From: Mugil cephalus
Taxonomy: Eukaryota; Chordata; Actinopteri; Mugiliformes; Mugilidae
Direction: 5' to 3'
NCBI RefSeq assembly: GCF_022458985.1
Contig: NC_061773.1
Location: 25,640,001 to 25,704,000 of the forward strand
Length of the DNA: 64,000 bases
The notes beneath the pieces are model-generated. The model was not told the origin of the DNA. It ran no database searches and worked only from the letters and a program-made list of their open reading frames with translations. How positions within the stretch are numbered: position 1 is the first letter of the stretch; every line of letters begins with the position of its first letter. The position numbers were made by a program, and so were the translations under genes. Positions 1-64,000 of this stretch are shown in pieces.

Positions 1-35
1 ATGTCTTGACTCACAGAATATAACTACATCCACGC

Positions 36-439
36 TCACATAAAGAATCCTGTGCAGTGTGAAAGCATGCAATACACATGCCCGTCCACATGGGGGTGGC
101 CTCTATCAGGTGGTGTTCTCTATGAAACCATTGCATATTATATGGTACACCATTTAATGTTGATGAGAGGCGTAGGACACTTGTACTCACACAACCATGT
201 GTTGCGGGTCCATGACTTCATTCCAAATAAGTAGATTAAAGCAATTTCTTTCATGCAACAAATGTTTTTATTGTTATTATTATTTTTATTCTTAATGCAT
301 TATACATGATATATTTTTTTATGACAGGAAAATTCAACTCACTAATGGGACTAATGATCTAATCATCTAAAACAACTAATATGCTAAAATATTACATATG
401 CATGCATTACTTTGTTGTGTTAATGAGCTCCTTATCTCG
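36..439 (-). other. 3' UTR and downstream flank of gene A (duplicated with 8137-8549)
   Basis: Homology between the two copies starts abruptly at CTCACATAAAG (35-45 and 8137-8147), which marks the left breakpoint of the segmental duplication. The segment holds the 3' UTR with two AATAAA signals. An apparent plus-strand ORF here is present in both copies but has no coding features. Confidence 0.6.
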
Positions 440-3400
440 TCACTTCTCCCCTAAAGATCAAGAGGAAAGGAAAATAAAATGTGTTGTCAATTTCTGTTTA
501 AGCTGCCACAACATCAACTGTGATACTTGTTGTATTTCATACTCACAGGCGATTGGTCCAATGGTGAGAGGCTCCAGGGGAGCAGAACTGGGCACAGAGC
601 GATGAACTCTCCCTCTGCAAGACTGTGATGTGAGAGGTGGTAGAAGTTTTAGACACATATATTATGCCCTTAATTATACAAAGCACTGATTATGGGTCTT
701 CTTTAGGATTTGGGAAATTCGGACTCACTGGGACGCAGTTGTCGTTCCTCTTGTCACACATGCTTAGTCTGCAGTGCAGGAAGACAGGGTTGTTAACCAG
801 AGCATGTGAGAGTGTGACCGAGAAACGAACACGGAGGGAGAGGCCATTCTCAACCACGGACACGTGTTCAGGGTCAGTAGGGCACCTGTAAATATGAGAT
901 CAGTGAAATTGTTGGACCAAAAATATTTATTTGGCTTATGTGGTTCAACAGTTTGCACAAACAAAATAGTTTTTAGCTGGATTCATTTGAGTTCTAATAG
1001 GTAGAATTCTGTAAACTTTGTGTTGCTGTAGATATTTACTATATACAGCTATATTTCATTATGACCACTAACAGGGGAAGTGAATAACATCGACCATCTT
1101 GTGACAATGCAATGTTATTCTAGGCATTACTTAGACATATACCACCCACCTAGACAAAACTAGGCACCCCCACCCCATGGCAATGATACTCCTTGATGGC
1201 AGCAGCCATCCCCTGCAGGATGCAGCCTGTGTCAGATTGAACAACTCAAAGGCCCCCACTAACAACATCCTGTTTCCAGATACCACAGGTCCTACACAAT
1301 ATTAGGCAGATGATCATAATGTTATGCCTGACAGAGAACCTTAGAACTTCAGCCTCGACAATCATTGCACATCATCATGACTTCTAGGTTATGACATTTG
1401 CTGACTGAATTAGGAGACATACCCAGAACTGATAAGTAAGTATTGCATAGCATCATCGGGGTTTGAGGAGTGACTGGTATAGCAATCCTCCAAAACAACT
1501 GCGAAGCTTGGATCACTCTCATCCACAAATGCTCCTACATGAAGGGGAGAGGCTGCTGGCAGGGTGACCAAGCCCGCTGGGTAGTTGTCTGCGTAGTCGG
1601 AGTCATGGAAGAGATGCATGAAAGCTCTGGCAAAAGCAGAGCAGAGAAAAGAGAAGAAAAAATAATTATATATTTATTTTAATTATACAGTGATTACAAA
1701 ATATATGTGCTGTTGTGGTTAAGGTTGACAACAGAAGACTTACAACAGTTCTTGCATCATTACAGTTTCCTGTTGGACATTCGTGTCCAAGGAATAGGCA
1801 CAGGAGAACGGAATGTTCTCCGGTAGAATCTGCGTATCATCGTTTAGAGGCTCGAGAACCAACGCATTGGAGTAGATGGCATGGGTGCTGTTGGTCTAAA
1901 ACAGAAGGATCATTTTGTAAGGAATTTCTTTTCTTGTGCATCGCAAACCAATAAATTTTAGATCTCCAGGAAATACTCGAAAGAATTGCATGGGCCCCAT
2001 GAAATGGAATCAGCTTATCCATTTAAGATTCATGCTGTTTCGTGGTCCATGTGCCAGTTTTCTGTACATGAAGTTGACTGAGCATCTAGGCTATGTGTTA
2101 TAGTAGAACACAGCTTGATGTATATATGATTAGAAGGTACACTGCTGCTAATTCCAGACACCAATGTCAGGTGTGCACCAATGTACACTGTGGGGCGTGC
2201 ACTGATGCATCGGGTTTACTGCTTGGTTATGTAATTTTAACCAAGATAGTTGTCTGTTTGGCTGCTAAGCATTGTTTGGCACACCCAACACTTCCAAAGA
2301 GAAGCAAAGAAACTGTGATCATAGTGAATTTATAGCTCTCCTTGATGGAAAGAAGATTTCTTTAGGTTTGACCATTGCTTACAAAAATGCATACGAAATA
2401 TCATGACCACAATAATCATACTAAGGTACTAAGGGTTTGTCAGCAGTTAATCAAAAAGTCATTAGGCTAGAAAATGAAATAGGTTTTCAAAAGGAATCTG
2501 TTTTCACCATCAATACAGTTCCACAGATGCCAGCCTGAAGTGGCATGTGGTACCACACGAAAGAATCATGCACTCTGGAGATGGAACAGTCAGAGTCAGT
2601 CAGCTGACCAGAGAATGGATTCAGACCGGATGACAAAAGGCTTCTGAAGTGCACACCAACTTCAATGTGATTGTGGGAACAAACAACTTGAAAAACCTCA
2701 AGTTGCTCCTCTGAAAGAAATTGGAATAAAAACAATAAACACATTATTTACAAGATAAACATTTACACTCAGTGATAACAAACTCCTCTGTTTAAGTCAC
2801 ACACTCATGGTATCTATAAACACATCTCCTACTTTAAACAGAATCACATGAACTATTTACCACAGACGACACCAGCATCCTCTGTGTGACCACAGTCGTG
2901 ATATCCCCATCCGTCATGCCAACACTCTGTTAGTGACGATTCATTTCCTGAACACTGAACGCTGTCTAACCAGATTGGTCCACTGCCTTGTCCAAATTGA
3001 GCCATGTGTGGTGCTGAAACAGCCCTACCACAGCCCAGCTGTTGACAAACCATCTGAGCATCTATCAGATCCCAGAGGTCATCACACACTGTCCCCCACT
3101 GGCCGTCGTGGAAGACCTCCACTCTGCCAGAGCAGCGACTGGTAGAGTTGACAAGCCTCACTTGCGAACTTGGTGGCGTTGGACCAGGTATGGCTTGAGA
3201 AATATCAGCTAGAAATTGGCACAAAAATGAACATGAAACCATCTGAAAACATGAGTCTGTCTAATAAAGAATGATGCATTTACCTTCACAGATGACACCA
3301 GCATCCTCTGTGTGACCACAGTCGTGATATCCCCATCCGTCATGCCGACACTCTGTTAGTGACAATTCATTTCCTGAACACTGAACGCTGTCTAACCAGA

Positions 3401-4104
3401 TTGGTCCACTGCCTTGTCCAAATTGAGCTCTTGATGGTGCTGAAACAGCCCCACCACAGCCCAGCTGTTGACAAACCATCTGAGCATCTATCAGATCCCA
3501 GAGGTCATCACACACTGTCCCCCACTGGCCGTCGTGGAAGACCTCCACTCTGCCAGAGCAGTGACTGGTAGAGTTGACAAGCCTCACTTGCGAACTTGGT
3601 GGCGTTGGACCAGGTGTAGTTTGAGAAATATCAGCTAGAAATTGGCACAAAAATGAACATGAAACCATCTGAAAACATGAGTCTGTCTAATAAAGAATGA
3701 TGCATTTACCTTCACAGATGACACCAGCATCCTCTGTGTGACCACAGTCGTGATATCCCCATCCGTCATGCCGACACTCTGTTAGTGACAATTCATTTCC
3801 TGAACACTGAACGCTGTCTAACCAGATTGGTCCACTGCCTTGTCCAAATTGAGCTCTTGATGGTGCTGAAACAGCCCCACCACAGCCCAGCTGTTGACAA
3901 ACCATCTGAGCATCTATCAGATCCCAGAGGTCATCACACACTGTCCCCCACTGGCCGTCGTGGAAGATCTCCACTCTGCCAGAGCAGCGACTGATAGAGT
4001 TGACAAGCCTCACTTGCGAACTTGGTGGCGTTGGACCAGGTGTGGCTTGAGAAACTGAAAATTATGAGAGTACATATGAAATGACAAATCAGAGAATACA
4101 TGTA

Positions 4105-4136
<32 letters not shown>

Positions 4137-6178
4137 TATTATTATTATTTTTACATATCTCTTTGATATACAAAAATGACAAAACAACATCCTTCCAAGA
4201 GGTTATCATGTGTTTGCTTCCTCCTTCCACATGAAAGCAGGCAGGCAGGCTACGGCATTTCAAACTGGCTGTTCCAGATGACTGCATCAAATTCCATAAA
4301 ACCATTTTATATGCTTTCTTGCCAGGTTGAGTTCTCCCCTCCCCTGTATTGTGTTCACTTCTGTCAAATTAGTAAGACATAACCCCTCAAACATCAAAAT
4401 GCACAGATACACATATCTTGTTTGAATGCAGGTCACCCAACTGGAACTCCTTGTCCTCTTTCTCTCTTTTTACTCCTAGATAAATCTATTGCATGGTAAC
4501 ATAGTCAAATAGTAACCTATCAGACTGTCATTCCCAAATGTATTGAATGTCTTGGGTTTGTTTTTTTTTCCACATTTCACAAGGCTTTGCCCTGGGGTCT
4601 CTGCATTTGGTAGTGCCACACATTCATTCAATCATTCATTCATTCATTCATTCATTCATTTTGTGTAACCGCTTGTCCTCTGGAGGGTCACAGGCCTCCA
4701 TTCTATCGCTGGGTTTACACAGAGAGACAGACAACCATTACCATCTACGACCAATTTAGAATCACCAATGAACCTAAGGAGCATGTCTTTGGATGGTGGG
4801 AGGAAGCTGGAGTACCTAATAAAAAGCCACTTAGACACAGGGAGGACATGCAAACTTGACCCTGCCAGAAAGGATTTGAACCCAGAACCTTCATGCTGTG
4901 AGGCATGGGTGCTAACTGGTGTCACACATTTGCATGACTTTTCCTATGCTAATGACACCCAGCTGTCATTGGCATCAAGGTACAATTGGGCCAAGCCAGT
5001 TGAACAGCAGGGCACCTGGGAGTGACCCTGAACGCTTGTGTGAAGAAGGGTGCTCTTTCCTACCTACAAGTTAAGGTCAAAGTCTTCCTCCTACTGCAAC
5101 AACTGAGCTCTCCTGCCTTTCACTGTTGTCCCATTACTCAGATGACCTCCGATGGTTACTGGTTACGGCTCCAGAGTTGTGGAATTAAGTCCCCACTGGA
5201 GTCAGGACACAAGGGTCCATCTTCCACGACAAACAACCCCAAATACCCATTACTTGAGTTTACTCATTTCTAATAATTACAGAAGATGCTACTAATTATC
5301 TGTTTAAATGGGTATCATGTAGCAAGACCTCCTTGTATCCTCCTCACAACATTTCTAAATCCCGCCCCTCGATCTCCATCTCATGCTGATGCTGAAAAGC
5401 TGGTCCATGCCTTTCCTCCTCCAGACTGGACTATTGTAACACACTTCTCATTGGGATCCCTAGAAAGAGCCTGCAGAGACTCCAATACATCCAAAAAGAA
5501 TTGTTTTGAAATCAACCATAGCCTTGAGTCTGATGGAGAGTTGGTTTGTCTGTTCTTTACAATTGCTGTTAGGCTACTTACAATTCTTGTTGCTCTCTAG
5601 TATAAAGGAGCAGTGCAAGGTGTAAAGTGCATAAAGTTTTAGGAGTTCTTTGCCTTCATGTATTATTGCAATTATTTGGATATTTTTGTTTTCACATCAT
5701 TTATACGTGGCTTCCCACATAATTTATTGTCTATTGTTTCTAATTTTATTTCATATACTTGTTCAATTTCTGTAATTTTAGAGTTTCTTGTTTAGTAATT
5801 AGTTGCTCAGTTCCCAAATATAATGAATTTCGTTTTGCTTAGATTTAGTGATATTTGAATTAAACCAGCTCTTCAACCACTGCAGTTCATTTTCCACTGT
5901 ATCCAGCAGTTACAGATTGTCTCCTTCTTCAATGGGAGAGATAAATGTGCAAACCTTACTCTAGTTATTTAACAATTAGCAGAGAACCCTTCAGACAAAG
6001 TCCTGACTTCCAGTTCAAACTAATCATACAGCTTTGTTTCTTCTGTGGCTTTACTTAGCATGGCTTGATAAAACCATAAACAAAAAGCCATGGCAACCTA
6101 CTTAGCCCAGAATATCACCTTACCTACATATCCAGTAAAAGTCTGGAGAACCAGGAGCAGCAGCACGTCTCGCGTCAT
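440..6178 (-). CDS. Gene A: DMBT1-like secreted protein, 3 SRCR domains + ZP domain
   Basis: Coding exons, read on the minus strand: 6124-6178 (signal peptide), 3710-4054, 3284-3634 and 2861-3208 (one SRCR each), 2508-2710 (ZP-N), 1744-1895 (ZP linker), 1423-1626, 729-885 and 547-622 (ZP-C), 440-450 (last codons and stop). They sum to 1902 nt, i.e. 633 aa, with no internal stop and matching GT-AG phases. Residues 1-18 start [12 protein letters not shown], a signal peptide. Each SRCR has eight cysteines (group B). The ZP module has ten conserved cysteines, a minimal furin site RVHR and a hydrophobic patch LTIGPI. The protein ends AWEK. Family members (DMBT1, hensin, CRP-ductin) are secreted mucosal pattern-recognition or epithelial proteins whose ZP domain polymerises; a role here is inferred only. 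AATAAA signals lie at 285-290 and 267-272. One ZP-C exon is 36 nt shorter than in gene B. SRCRs differ from gene B in the last third ([13 protein letters not shown]). Confidence 0.85.
2861..4054 (-). repeat. Tandem array of 3 SRCR exon-intron units (gene A)
   Basis: Exons of 345, 351 and 348 bp are separated by 75-bp introns, the same architecture as in gene B. The last unit lacks one Glu codon just before its donor (TGT-G|GT instead of TGT-GAA-G|GT). All three share the DGWGYHDC variant, so the three copies of gene A have been homogenised separately from those of gene B. Confidence 0.9.
4105..4150. repeat. (ATT)n microsatellite
   Basis: Near-perfect ATT repeat with one ACT interruption in intron 1 of gene A. 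Confidence 0.95.
4600..4925 (+). repeat. Interspersed fish repeat with (ATTC)n, gene A intron 1
   Basis: An ATTC microsatellite (4621-4660) is followed by a common teleost interspersed sequence (acacagagagacagacaacc, then caatttagaatcaccaatgaacc). A homologous, diverged copy sits at 17605-17660 plus 18562-18760 in gene B intron 1, so the insertion predates the gene duplication. Related copies on the other strand lie at 26495-26740 and about 54600-54740. Confidence 0.7.
4930..5530 (+). mobile_element. Decayed L2/CR1-clade LINE reverse-transcriptase remnant
   Basis: Fragments of a reverse transcriptase are recognisable on the plus strand: [11 protein letters not shown] near 4950 (decayed YADDTQ catalytic motif), [10 protein letters not shown] near 5020, and, after frame breaks, a stretch near 5390-5490 like the C-terminal [20 protein letters not shown] region. 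It is non-functional. A shorter homologous piece is in gene B at 18760-18960. Clade is judged by eye. Confidence 0.6.
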
Positions 6179-6342
6179 CCTGACTTCACGTAACACTCAG
6201 TAAAAAAGTGGTGAACGGTGGTAAGTGGCAAAAAAGGTATTATACTTCTTGTAATCTATATTCGCACCGAGACAGGAGACTGTTCTGCAAGAGAGAGACC
6301 TGAATACAGGAGGTGAAGTAAGAATGAAGATGTGGCACACTT

Positions 6343-6353
6343 CAATTTATAGG
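6343..6353 (-). promoter_or_regulatory. Putative TATA box of gene A
   Basis: Minus-strand CTATAAATT lies about 170 bp upstream of the gene A start codon. The aligned position in gene B (19470-19478) reads CTATACATT, a weaker TATA match. Surrounding sequence (GTGACTACCTATA versus GTGACTGCCTATA) is shared by both promoters. Transcription start sites are inferred about 30 bp downstream. Confidence 0.45.
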
Positions 6354-6922
6354 TAGTCACAAATATCTTATGTTTTTCATGCAAATATTAGTACATCATT
6401 AGAGAGAAGCAAATATTAATATTTGATGATATTTACATAAATGTTAAAGTTTAAAGACTGTTATCTAGGCAGTGGTGAACAATTTCTATGAAAATGGATG
6501 TTGGAGGTCTGTGTTTTAACAACAATATTGTTGATAGCTTTGAGTATTACTGAACCAGCCATGGAAAGTTTTTTTTTTTTAGCTCACTAAAACAAAGTGG
6601 TCAAATGCAATGTGTGCAACCTTTAGTCTGCAAAGAAAATAGCTAAACAAGGTAGGCAACCTCTGTAATGCTTTGGAGTTTTTTTTTTTTTTTTTTTTAT
6701 TGTGTGATTGACTGAATTGTCCAGACTTCTCCAAAGTGCTGCTAACATGTTGGTGGAACATGACAGTCCATGGAAGAGGAGCCTATCCACTTATAGAAGG
6801 TTGTTTCATGTATCTCAAACAGTATTCGTGGACTATTTGCAATCTCACCGGGTTCTCTAATGCGCCTCCACCAAGACGTCGTAATCCAAATAGTTTCTTC
6901 ACATTTTTTAAAAGAAATCTTT

Positions 6923-7091
6923 ACACTCAAATACGCTTTACATTGGATACATTATTCATTTGCATTCACACAGTCACACCCTGGTGGTGGTAAACTAACA
7001 CAGTACACGCAGCTACCCTGGGGCAGACTGACGGAAACATGACTGTGTTAGCAAATGAACAATATACCCAATGTAAAGCGTATTTGAGTGT
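6923..7091. repeat. 169-bp foldback (palindromic) element
   Basis: Left arm 6923-6963 (starting acactcaaatacgctttaca) and right arm 7051-7091 (ending gtaaagcgtatttgagtgt) are inverted repeats around an 87-bp loop. The arm sequence resembles the tail found at the 3' end of fish L2-type repeats (gtaaagcgctttgagtgt), so two tails may lie head to head. A diverged copy is at 20962-21097 in the opposite orientation. Confidence 0.8.
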
Positions 7092-7190
7092 CTATTAATT
7101 CAACCTAATTTTAAAATGTAGGTCAACTCAAAAAACTATGTTCATAACAAAATGAAAGATTTCTTTTAAATAATATGGTGCAAAACCAGT

Positions 7191-8136
7191 TACTGTGGCA
7201 ACACTTGGTCCCTAAATCTGTACAGAGATTTACCTGTATAAAAAAAAAGGTTTATTAAAAATGTAAACCGTGAATCGGTAATAAGCCGGGCTCCATTTCC
7301 TCAGGTGAAAATATGGAGGTACACAGCACGTTCTGGTCTTTGGAGGGGGCATAGGCAGAGCAGGCAAACATCAAGCACCAAGCGCTCTTCTGTACGCATT
7401 CTTCTCTTCAGTGCCTCCGGTAGGAGTGCCTTAGAATCATGCTTTTGCTTTCATAAAAGTGTAAGAACAATCGCAACTACTGTGCTGATTAGATGAGAGA
7501 CCTCCATCTTTGATCATTCACGTGATCTTTTCATCGATCTGCGTCCTTAAAATGGCTGTTCCAATTGAATGTAGTGACACACAGCAGCGTCACGATTCTC
7601 TCTCTGTAGACACATTTTGTAGTGCTTTTGTGTGTAAATAAGTTGTTGTGCCTCATGCTGTGTCTTCTTTTCTGTGCGTGGGGCACAGCTGAGATGGCCC
7701 TGGCTGATTTGATGCAAGGGGCGGTCACTGCACATGTCAGCTAGCTCAGCTAACGTATGTTACGTAACCAATCAACGAATGTTACATAGTTGGCTGTGGT
7801 ATATTGTGTGTGGTGACTTTGTATATTGATTGCTGTGTATCGGGTGTGCACTGTTTACACCATGAGCCTTGCATTCTGTTTTTTATTGTTGTCACATTAC
7901 TTTCTATTGTAACATTTGATATAGTGAGATCTTGAACACTGCCATTTGGTGGTGCTATTGATATGATAATATATGTTGTCAGATTGGCATCGTTTGTGTG
8001 ATGGCATTATTCAGCCGCAGTTTTATCGTCACCTTTTTGTTGTCACTTGCTTCTGTGTTTTTGTTGTGAGTGTATTGATTATGGTATTTCTGAACTGCAT
8101 TATGCCATGGCCCTATCAGAACTTCGATGCTTGTTC
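7191..8136. other. Unduplicated spacer between gene A upstream flank and gene B downstream flank
   Basis: This stretch has no counterpart elsewhere in the window and separates the two duplicated segments. I see only short ORFs without family similarity and no exon-like structure. Confidence 0.5.
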
Positions 8137-8549
8137 CTCACATAAAGAATCCTGTGCAGTGTGAAAGCATGCAATACACATGCCCGTCCACATGGGGGTG
8201 GCCTCTATCAGGTTCTGTTCTTTATGAAACCATTGCATATTATACGGTACACCATTTAATGTTGATGAGAGGCGTAGGACACTTGTACTCACACAACCAT
8301 GGGTTGTGGGTCCATGACTTCATTCCAAATAAGTAGAAGCTTAACTTGAAGCAATTTCTTTCATGCAACAAATGTTTTTATTGTTATTATTATTTTTATT
8401 CTTAATGCATTATACATGATATATTTTTTTATGACTTGAAGATGCAACACACTAATGGGACTAATGATCTAATCATCTAAAACAACTAATATGCTAAAAT
8501 ATTACATGTGAATGCATTGCTTTGTGGTATTAATGAGCTCCTTATGTCG

Positions 8550-19308
<10,759 letters not shown>

Positions 19309-19469
19309 CCTGACTGCGTGTCACAATCGGGAAATAAGACAACTAACCTGTAAGTGACAAATAAGATGGTGTACTTATTGTAGCCTTTGTTCTCATTGAG
19401 GCTGGACCCTGTTTTGCAAGAGAAACCTGACAACAGGAGGTGAAATACGAAAGAGATAAGGCACGCTAC

Positions 19470-19478
19470 AATGTATAG
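19470..19478 (-). promoter_or_regulatory. Putative degenerate TATA box of gene B
   Basis: The minus-strand CTATACATT aligns with the TATA box of gene A, about 165 bp upstream of the gene B start codon. The A-to-C change weakens the match, so initiation strength may differ between paralogues. Confidence 0.35.
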
Positions 19479-20829
19479 GCAGTCACAAATATTTTATAAC
19501 TTTCATGCAAATAGAAAAGAGTTTAAAGTTGTTTGTTATCTAGACAGGGGTGACCATTTGTATGAACATGGATGTTGTCATTTTTTGAGAAACTGCACCA
19601 AACAAGCTTTGCTCTACCGACTGCCCAATTGCAATTGCAAATCTACCAAATTTTGTCACGGTGAGTAAATACAATACATATATAAAAAAAGTCACTTTTT
19701 GTGGTAACAACAAATACAACAGTGTGAGCATATAACAATCAGCATTCATTCCTACCACAAAATTGGTTGGTTGGTTGGATATATATATTGTTCGTAACAC
19801 ATGCAGCTGGCTTTATCATCTTGGTCTTCATCAGTTTCTCACCCTTTTCAAGCAGGTGTCCTTTGAGGATGACTGTCGGCGTTTATGTCACTGCCCGAGA
19901 ACTAACTCTCTTCTCTGTTGAGGGGTCTCTTATAGGACTGGTAGGGCAGATCGGGTTTGCGTGAAGATAATAGCGCTTTGTGAAATCCTATGGTAATTGT
20001 TCGGAGGGCCTCTTGTTCCAGTATCTCGTAAAGCAACAATTAAGAGACAGCAGATCGGCAGGTGACCTAAAACCACACAAAATACCACATTCACAATGGC
20101 AAGTATCCTGTGACAGTTTCTCCATTGTTTGGATGGATTGTTAGAGGAAGATCTTAGTCTTGCTAAAAGTTCACACAACATTAATGTTTCAATATGCAAA
20201 GCAGCAAATGCAAACTGTGCAACTTTTGTGGAAGTTTTTTTTTTCAGTCTGCAAAGAAAATACAGTAACTAAACATGGTAGGTTACCACTGTATTTCTTT
20301 ATAGTTTTTTTTAATTGTGTGATTGACTGAATTGTTCAGCCTTCTCCAAAGTGCTGTTAACGTGTTGTTGGAACATGGCAGAGTCCGTGGAAGAGGAGCC
20401 TATCCACTTATAAAAGGTTGTTTCATGTATCTCAAACAATATTCCGGGATTACATTTATATATCTATCCTGATACTCTAATACGCCTCCACCAAAACGTC
20501 CTCTTGCATTGTTTTAACATCATCATGGAGCAGCAATGCATCTAAAAAATGTAGTAAAATAGAGACTGCAAGCAAACAAGTTGCATAGAGAGCGTCTATG
20601 TAAGAGTTAGAGATGATACAGCAAAGGAAATAAATAGTTATGATAACAAACAAGCACCACTGGGTTTTAAAGTGCAGAGGAAAATAATTAATTTAATTAC
20701 AGAGCACACATTTCTATTTGTACTCTCCTCTACTGTATTCTCGTGTGGCTGGATATATTAAACAAACAGACTATATCGAGTTATGGGCACTATCCTTTCT
20801 TCTACATTCATCAGTGTTTTTAATTATGA

Positions 20830-36201: not shown

Positions 36202-39669
<3,468 letters not shown>

Positions 39670-39834
39670 TTTGTTGTCGTTTTGTTTTTGTTTGCAGCCG
39701 CGCAGAACTTGGGGTGAGCAACTCCCGGTATAGTCCGAGCCGCCTCTCCAGCTGCCCCGCGTCTTTTCACTCTACTGAGCTCCCAGCAGAAAAGACAGGA
39801 GGACACATCAGTTTAATAAGCACCTTGCTGTCAC

Positions 39835-44732: not shown

Positions 44733-44814
44733 GGTAGTGTGGCCGAGTGGTCTAAGGCGCTGGATTTAGGCTCCAGTCTCTATGGAGGCGTGGGTTCAAA
44801 TCCCACCACTGCCA
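44733..44814 (+). tRNA. tRNA-Leu (anticodon TAG)
   Basis: An 82-nt type II tRNA. The acceptor stem GGTAGTG pairs with CACTGCC, with discriminator A at 44814. The D-arm region contains the A box TGGCCGAGTGG. The anticodon stem CTGGA/TCCAG carries loop TTTAGGC with TAG at 44767-44769. A long variable arm (TCTCTATGGAGG) and the B box GGTTCAAATCC follow. All elements match eukaryotic tRNA-Leu(UAG). The 5' flank is a minisatellite ending at its first base. The 3' flank has only TTT (atcttta), a weak Pol III terminator; the next T run is TTTT near 44885. Confidence 0.95.
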
Positions 44815-63424: not shown

Positions 63425-64000
63425 ACACACCTTGCTAGTAAAAGGTTGGACCCCCTTTTGACTTCAGAACTGCCTTAATCCTTCGTTTCATACTTTCAAC
63501 AAGGTGTTGGAAACATTCCTCAGAGATTTTGGTTCATATCGACATGATAGCATCACACGGTGGCTGCAGATTTGTCGGCTGCACATGTATGATGAGAATC
63601 TCCTGTTCCACCACATCTCAAAGGTGCTCTATCTATTGGATTGAGATCTGGTGACTGTGGAGGTCATTGGAGGCCATTGAACTCATTGTCATGTTCCAGA
63701 AACCAGTTTGAGATGATATGAGCTTTGTGACATGGTGCATTATCCTGCTGGAAGTAGCCATCAGAAGATGGTCCACTGTGGTCATAAAGGGATGGACATG
63801 GTCAGCAACAATACTCAGGTAGGCTGTGGCATTTAAACCATGCTCAGTTTGTACTAAGGGGCCTAAAGTGTGCCAAAGAAATATCCCCCACACCATTACA
63901 CCACCACCACCAGCCTGAACCGTTGATACAAGGCAGGATGGATCCAGGCTTTCATGATGTTTACGCCAAATTCTGAGCCTGACATCTGAATGTAGCAGCT
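63425..64000 (-). mobile_element. Decayed Tc1/mariner-like transposon (cut by window edge)
   Basis: The minus strand encodes the C-terminal half of a Tc1-like transposase: VWGIFLWHTLGPLVQTEHGL, then after a frame shift GYFQQDNAPCHKAHIISNWF (second catalytic Asp in QQDNAPCHKA) and HSPDLNPID (the usual third catalytic residue Glu follows NPI; here Asp). The end near 63425-63460 (agacacaccttgctagtaaa) resembles the known fish element terminus. Frame shifts and stops make it dead. The 5' part lies beyond 64000. Confidence 0.8.

Follow-up and report, generated by a model that had tools for sequence, protein, structure and literature searches.

The closest described systems are mammalian DMBT1 (also SALSA, gp340, or hensin), the ZP proteins uromodulin and GP2, and clusters of SRCR-superfamily genes in sponges. 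Human DMBT1 carries 7 to 20 SRCR domains per molecule depending on the allele, and the mutation rate of its CNV1 deletion allele is 0.7 to 2.7% per generation (PMC4851238). The size of the protein depends on its repeat number, and an S. mutans strain was not bound by short isoforms (PMC9038570). Eight cysteines make up the group-B SRCR pattern, and the SIDs between the SRCR domains of DMBT1 have 20 to 24 residues (PMC3100851). In uromodulin, the interdomain linker of the ZP module has 28 residues, F456 being the last, and residues 446 to 452 form Lβ3, a linker strand by which the ZP-N sheet of the following subunit is completed (PMC7486124). F456 is highly conserved and stacks on Y427, L435 is the plug of a ZP-C pocket, and ZP proteins with a minimal linker, such as endoglin and betaglycan, do not polymerize (PMC7737619). 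Recent tandem SRCR duplicates in a sponge have a conserved exon structure and two to six SRCR domains (PMC10855680). No paper among the matches listed, in which subscription journals are thinly covered, described fish SRCR–ZP gene pairs with differing unit number, and the lungfish genome paper names dmbt1 solely for its largest intron (PMC7875771).

We analyzed a 64,000-nucleotide stretch of Mugil cephalus DNA (the window) and found two neighboring SRCR–ZP genes that resemble DMBT1 without matching its mammalian definition. They share with it a secreted product with a C-terminal ZP module, tandem group-B SRCR domains encoded by one exon each, Ser/Thr/Pro linkers, and a unit number that varies, here between the two genes and in human by allele. 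On the other hand, mammalian DMBT1 has an additional SRCR domain with a CUB domain on either side before ZP, and neither CUB nor SRCR14 was found here. Pfam returned no CUB in the parts scanned, namely the whole protein of gene 1 and a three-unit open reading frame and the ZP part of gene 2. There is no room for a CUB domain before the ZP exons, because the introns following the last SRCR exon have only 150 bp in gene 1 and 146 bp in gene 2. Also unlike DMBT1 with its longer SIDs, the Pro/Thr/Ser-rich linkers have about 16 to 18 residues, as read from the translations, and are encoded inside the SRCR exon. The repeat unit is only 426 bp long, two genes stand in tandem, and none of the 14 SRCR units has the bacteria-binding motif VEVLxxxxW (named in a title cited by PMC5435793, and given as a peptide in PMC3100851). 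An earlier comparison with DMBT1 thus stands for the probable mode of working, but not for the CUB domains and this motif.

The ZP-N and ZP-C domains and an EHP-like LTIGPI, common to the proteins of both genes, are shared with uromodulin and GP2, from which they differ in that Pfam reported no EGF or D8C domain for the parts scanned. Unlike uromodulin, neither protein has a membrane anchor in its sequence, an FXF motif (a feature of the ZP-C ef loop) within its last 110 residues, or a match to R415 in the fg loop of ZP-N, where the alignment is loose, and gene 1 is without the linker strand. The sponge clusters resemble the locus in having tandem copies that differ in SRCR number, and they are likened to it on that feature alone. 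The locus is ordinary for the SRCR–ZP family, and the in-frame loss of the linker strand in gene 1 is its more interesting point.

Layout of the two SRCR–ZP genes

The two genes lie head to tail (Table 1). Their exon models rest on homology and splice consensus and were joined at GT-AG, and each has one terminal stop and a coding total divisible by three. These totals exactly reproduce those of the first-pass annotation, whose claim of 3 versus 11 SRCR exons in intact frames was borne out by our separately built models. Above the curated cutoffs, Pfam found SRCR, ZP-N, and Zona_pellucida in the whole spliced protein of gene 1, and ZP-N and Zona_pellucida in the ZP part of gene 2; the three-unit open reading frame of gene 2 scored 358 bits for SRCR. 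The best matches of the gene 2 ZP module were uromodulin (E 5.5e-39) and GP2. The two signal exons are 94% identical over 18 amino acids, the first intron measures about 2.07 kb in either gene, and both proteins end with an EHP-like LTIGPIAW plus two residues. A tblastn search of the whole window with one SRCR unit (E up to 1) returned the 14 units of the two arrays and none beyond them, and no further copy of the gene 2 ZP part or signal peptide was found in the same span.

We consider it likely that these are two tandemly duplicated genes for secreted SRCR–ZP proteins with a DMBT1/SALSA-like predicted ligand binding. Each product would start with a signal peptide and continue with a series of group-B SRCR domains, connected by short linkers of Pro, Thr, and Ser, before ending in a ZP module of the uromodulin/GP2 type.

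Table 1. Coordinates of the two genes, their exons, and the homogenized tract in the window
Feature	Position	Strand	Remarks
Gene 1	6178–440	minus	CDS 1902 nt, 633 aa, 10 exons, 3 SRCR exons
Gene 1 signal-peptide exon	6124..6178	minus	55 nt, ends in phase 1
Gene 1 SRCR exon 1	3710..4054	minus	345 nt, phase 1-1, 8 Cys
Gene 1 SRCR exon 2	3284..3634	minus	351 nt, phase 1-1
Gene 1 SRCR exon 3	2861..3208	minus	348 nt, phase 1-1
Gene 1 ZP1 exon (ZP-N)	2508..2710	minus	203 nt; Pfam ZP-N on the spliced protein
Gene 1 ZP2 exon	1744..1895	minus	152 nt; ends within the ZP linker
Gene 1 ZP3 exon	1423..1626	minus	204 nt; 12 codons absent (uromodulin 447-457)
Gene 1 ZP3 substitute acceptor	TTTTGCCAG, ending at 1627	minus	
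Gene 1 ZP4 exon (ZP-C)	729..885	minus	157 nt
Gene 1 ZP5 exon	547..622	minus	76 nt; RVHR basic site
Gene 1 terminal exon	440..450	minus	11 nt including stop
Gene 2	19308–8550	minus	CDS 4752 nt, 1583 aa, 18 exons, 11 SRCR exons
Gene 2 signal-peptide exon	19254..19308	minus	55 nt
Gene 2 SRCR array	12580..17185	minus	11 exons, phase 1-1, 75/76-nt introns
Gene 2 SRCR exons 1–4	17185-16841, 16765-16415, 16338-15988, 15912-15562	minus	
Gene 2 SRCR exons 5–8	15486-15136, 15060-14710, 14634-14284, 14208-13858	minus	
Gene 2 SRCR exons 9–11	13782-13432, 13356-13006, 12930-12580	minus	
Gene 2 ZP1 exon	12231..12433	minus	203 nt
Gene 2 ZP2 exon	9648..9799	minus	152 nt
Gene 2 ZP3 exon	9314..9553	minus	240 nt; linker segment present, missing from gene 1
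Gene 2 ZP4 exon	8849..9008	minus	160 nt
Gene 2 ZP5 exon	8666..8741	minus	76 nt
Gene 2 terminal exon	8550..8560	minus	11 nt including stop
3′ homogenized tract, gene 1 side	35..945	.	fitted change point ~945
3′ homogenized tract, gene 2 side	8137 to roughly 9060	.	upper end estimated, not computed

Three other features lie elsewhere in the window. C2H2 zinc-finger exons at 36202-39771 on the minus strand, where Pfam reported zinc fingers for two of three open reading frames scanned, are a possible synteny anchor, and their N-terminus presumably represents a FEZF2-like sequence. This gene and the shortness of the introns would fit a vertebrate, probably a ray-finned fish. ARAGORN in its bacterial setting reported a tRNA-Leu at 44733-44814 beside a TGAGGTG repeat, which is probably spurious. 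At 63633-63998, an open reading frame on the minus strand without a Pfam hit extends past the window end, and we take it to be a remnant of a Tc1-type transposase.

SRCR arrays and unit number

The SRCR exons have lengths of 345, 351, and 348 nt in gene 1 and of 345 nt followed by 10 times 351 nt in gene 2, and all 14 are entered and left in phase 1, in agreement with the modular phase 1-1 structure proposed before. Of the 12 within-array introns, 11 have 75 nt and one has 76, giving a repeat unit of 426 bp (exon 351 plus intron 75), from which only a single unit of 427 bp departs. Tandem Repeats Finder reported a period of 426 for both arrays, with 2.8 and 10.8 copies. Every unit has eight cysteines (14/14), and each domain is contained in one exon. 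A 425-codon open frame at 12983-14260 on the minus strand spans three SRCR exons together with the stop-free 75-nt introns between them. Coding read-through of the array introns was nevertheless rejected: a stop interrupts both introns of gene 1, and in gene 2 a stop or a frameshift occurs in 7 of 10, leaving 3 that are free of stops and of a length divisible by three.

Among the solved DMBT1 SRCR domains, a gene 2 unit matched 6sa5 (E 1.6e-42), which ranked below chains with several SRCR domains, CD163 among them, where nine domains contribute to the score. The cation-coordinating positions in DMBT1 SRCR are D1019, D1020, D1058, D1059, N1081, and E1086 (PMC7043408). When these were placed on our units by spacing, without a structure alignment, D1019, D1020, D1058, and E1086 were conserved in 14/14 units. 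The N1081 position has N in the 11 units of gene 2 and D in the 3 units of gene 1, and the D1059 position has D in none of the 14, being N in 11 and S in 3. As in DMBT1/SALSA, the SRCR domains would bind polyanionic microbial or host ligands, putatively via a Ca2+-bridged acidic patch, with a valency that grows with unit number. In that case, the agglutinin encoded by gene 2 would be long and multivalent, and that of gene 1 short. The unit number itself may shift by unequal exchange between the 426-bp repeats, and since these are of phase 1-1, the frame is kept at any unit number.

The closest pair among the 10 full units of array 2 is 98.4% identical (98.3% for the closest of its 11 exons), and adjacent units resemble each other no more than units in shuffled order do (lag 1 P 0.21), so nothing in this haplotype points to a very recent change of array 2. 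The analysis covered one haplotype, and the copy-number polymorphism that the first-pass annotation thought likely is a putative one. Array 1, on the other hand, may have changed more recently, given that its two introns are identical and its longest exact repeat reaches 347 bp (263 bp in array 2). A higher-order repeat in array 2 is not claimed; lags 2 and 3 were slightly raised, with P values of 0.05 and 0.03 for units 1–10, uncorrected over seven lags, and of 0.15 and 0.04 for units 2–10. The exact repeats in both arrays exceed common short reads, which together with the identical introns of gene 1 would fit a difference of 3 versus 11 that is partly an assembly artifact, with array 1 collapsed or array 2 inflated. 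We regard this as very improbable. All 10 full units and all 11 exons of array 2 can be told apart at the identities given above, the window contains no N, and each array starts with a 345-nt exon preceded by a long intron and closes with its own last intron of 146 to 150 bp.

Duplication history and constraint

The flanks and introns of both genes align, and we therefore conclude that a whole gene was duplicated, with the homology between the paralogues ending at 35/8137. The SRCR units cluster by gene (bootstrap 100), and exon identity is 96 to 99% in array 1 and 92 to 98% in array 2, but 85 to 90% between the arrays, indicating that the arrays were homogenized or expanded separately. Toward the 3′ end, divergence is 5.5% over the last 907 aligned bases versus 23% in the 197 sites upstream, a change at ~945 with a Fisher P of 9e-13, which is optimistic because the change point was fitted. 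The other aligned stretches diverge by 9 to 26% in most 100-base windows, with outliers of 31% in the ZP3–ZP4 intron and 36% at the 5′ end. When only noncoding DNA was counted, divergence was 1.9 to 5.2% in three 3′ stretches and 13.7 to 20.2% in four upstream intron stretches. Judged from the sequence, the simplest reading would be that the 3′ end underwent gene conversion at a later time.

The 5′ ends with the signal exons (6110-6387 and 19240-19513) are among the most diverged parts, at 18 to 36% per 100-base window, and the two genes may accordingly differ in regulation. The ZP1–ZP2 intron has 2.4 kb in gene 2 versus 0.6 kb in gene 1. It holds an insertion in gene 2 (10200-12190, minus) with a reverse-transcriptase-like open reading frame at 10748-11239, for which Pfam gave ALKBH8_N (22.3 bits) and which we presume to be LINE-like.

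Over 858 aligned non-SRCR coding bases, we found no frame-shifting indel, whereas 5.1 were expected (Poisson P 0.006) at the rate of the paralogous noncoding DNA if both copies had been drifting. The unconverted part alone likewise had none versus 5.0 expected (P 0.007), and no stop was seen versus 2.8 expected among the 86 substitutions in ZP (P 0.06). Intact frames through drift of both copies would therefore be unlikely on these counts. With only one copy drifting, however, the expectation halves to about 2.5 (P about 0.08), so that the intact frame is not decisive against a decay of gene 1. It appears rather unlikely to us that gene 1 is a duplicate decaying toward a pseudogene, its array having shrunk and its ZP module having been damaged. 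Its ZP deletion would fit such a course, and so would a dN/dS of 0.69 between the ZP modules (no test against 1) and the differences among its SRCR units, which are mostly nonsynonymous (pN/pS 1.65; 3 pairs with few changes, mean 8.5 N and 1.5 S). The dN/dS and the pN/pS suggest that one copy may be loosely constrained, while array 2 is constrained, with a pN/pS of 0.28 over 55 pairs. Against decay stand the missing frameshifts and stops, the equal change of both copies relative to uromodulin (among the differing sites, uromodulin agrees with gene 1 alone at 13 and with gene 2 alone at 10, with 96 identities for each copy), and the 10 ZP cysteines, which align by eye between gene 1 and gene 2. 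Overall decay of gene 1 is not favored by the comparison with uromodulin.

Between the arrays, 12 residues are fixed differences, and a count by codon gives 12 nonsynonymous and 2 synonymous fixed changes. We do not claim positive selection; an MK-like test of fixed changes (15.5 N : 5.5 S, entered as 16 : 6) against within-array variation (38 N : 31 S) gave a P of 0.21; with gene 2 variation only (26 : 28), it was 0.07. Ten of the 21 fixed nucleotide differences fall within codons 94–104 (P 8e-6, for a region picked post hoc), a cluster that includes the cation-site position 1081. This crowding could reflect one small conversion event.

The ZP linker of gene 1

The first-pass annotation had the paralogy right and overlooked both the 3′ homogenization and a loss in the ZP linker of gene 1. 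Its one-to-one correspondence of the ZP modules holds for the number of exons, but not for their content, as ZP3 has 204 versus 240 nt and ZP4 157 versus 160 nt. Nor is it the case that only the SRCR block differs, since ZP3 of gene 1 is 36 nt shorter. In the alignment with gene 2, the old acceptor of this exon and part of the exon itself are missing from gene 1, and a CCAG within the former coding sequence, after a long pyrimidine tract, provides a substitute acceptor. Twelve residues are lost with the frame kept, and they match uromodulin 447–457, including the conserved F456. Both uromodulin and GP2 have residues there, and a loss in gene 1 is therefore the simplest account. We took a linker of 22 to 28 residues with strand Lβ3 and F456 as the mark of a polymerizing ZP module. 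The gene 2 linker, with 26 residues against uromodulin 429-456, retains the F, while that of gene 1 has 16 residues and is without F456. Endoglin and betaglycan, which act as co-receptors and whose N-terminal parts are unrelated, have a shortened linker between ZP-N and ZP-C as in gene 1.

These observations may point to a specialized gene 1, that is, a non-polymerizing paralogue of low valency acting as a soluble decoy or filament terminator, with gene 2 as the assembling form of high valency; we think this unlikely. In its favor, the deletion removes most of Lβ3 as well as F456 from a segment that is present in uromodulin and GP2, gene 1 has a Q at the position of L435, the ZP-C pocket plug, and the known minimal-linker ZP proteins do not polymerize. 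The linker also holds 3 of the 10 changes derived in gene 1 (P 0.025, post hoc) versus 1 of the 13 derived in gene 2. On the other hand, both proteins are without FXF in their last 110 residues and without R415 in a loosely aligned loop, and filaments of the uromodulin type may therefore be beyond gene 2 as well. Both proteins also terminate just past the EHP-like LTIGPI, as does a uromodulin-EHP construct that is secreted and unpolymerized, and the ZP-C Pfam scores of the two are nearly equal (78.6 and 76.6 bits). A fuller division of roles would make gene 2 an 11-domain agglutinin with a full linker, and would have gene 1 regulate the gene 2 polymer as a soluble product that does not itself assemble. 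The linker strand of gene 1 would then have been excised in frame by deletion of the splice acceptor, and its SRCR face would have been altered in a cluster (codons 94-104). Even the gene 2 product may not polymerize, and we therefore keep this division at a low probability, as a distinctly unlikely one.

For the preferred reading, two tandem duplicates encoding DMBT1/SALSA-like secreted proteins, the number of SRCR units is of interest because repeat number in DMBT1 is tied to bacterial binding in humans (PMC9038570). The compact pair of 3 and 11 units, which can be spanned by one long read, would be convenient for following the evolution of SRCR number. The linker loss of gene 1, in a protein whose frame is otherwise intact, would, if real in transcripts, be a naturally occurring deletion within the very portion of ZP on which filament formation in uromodulin depends.
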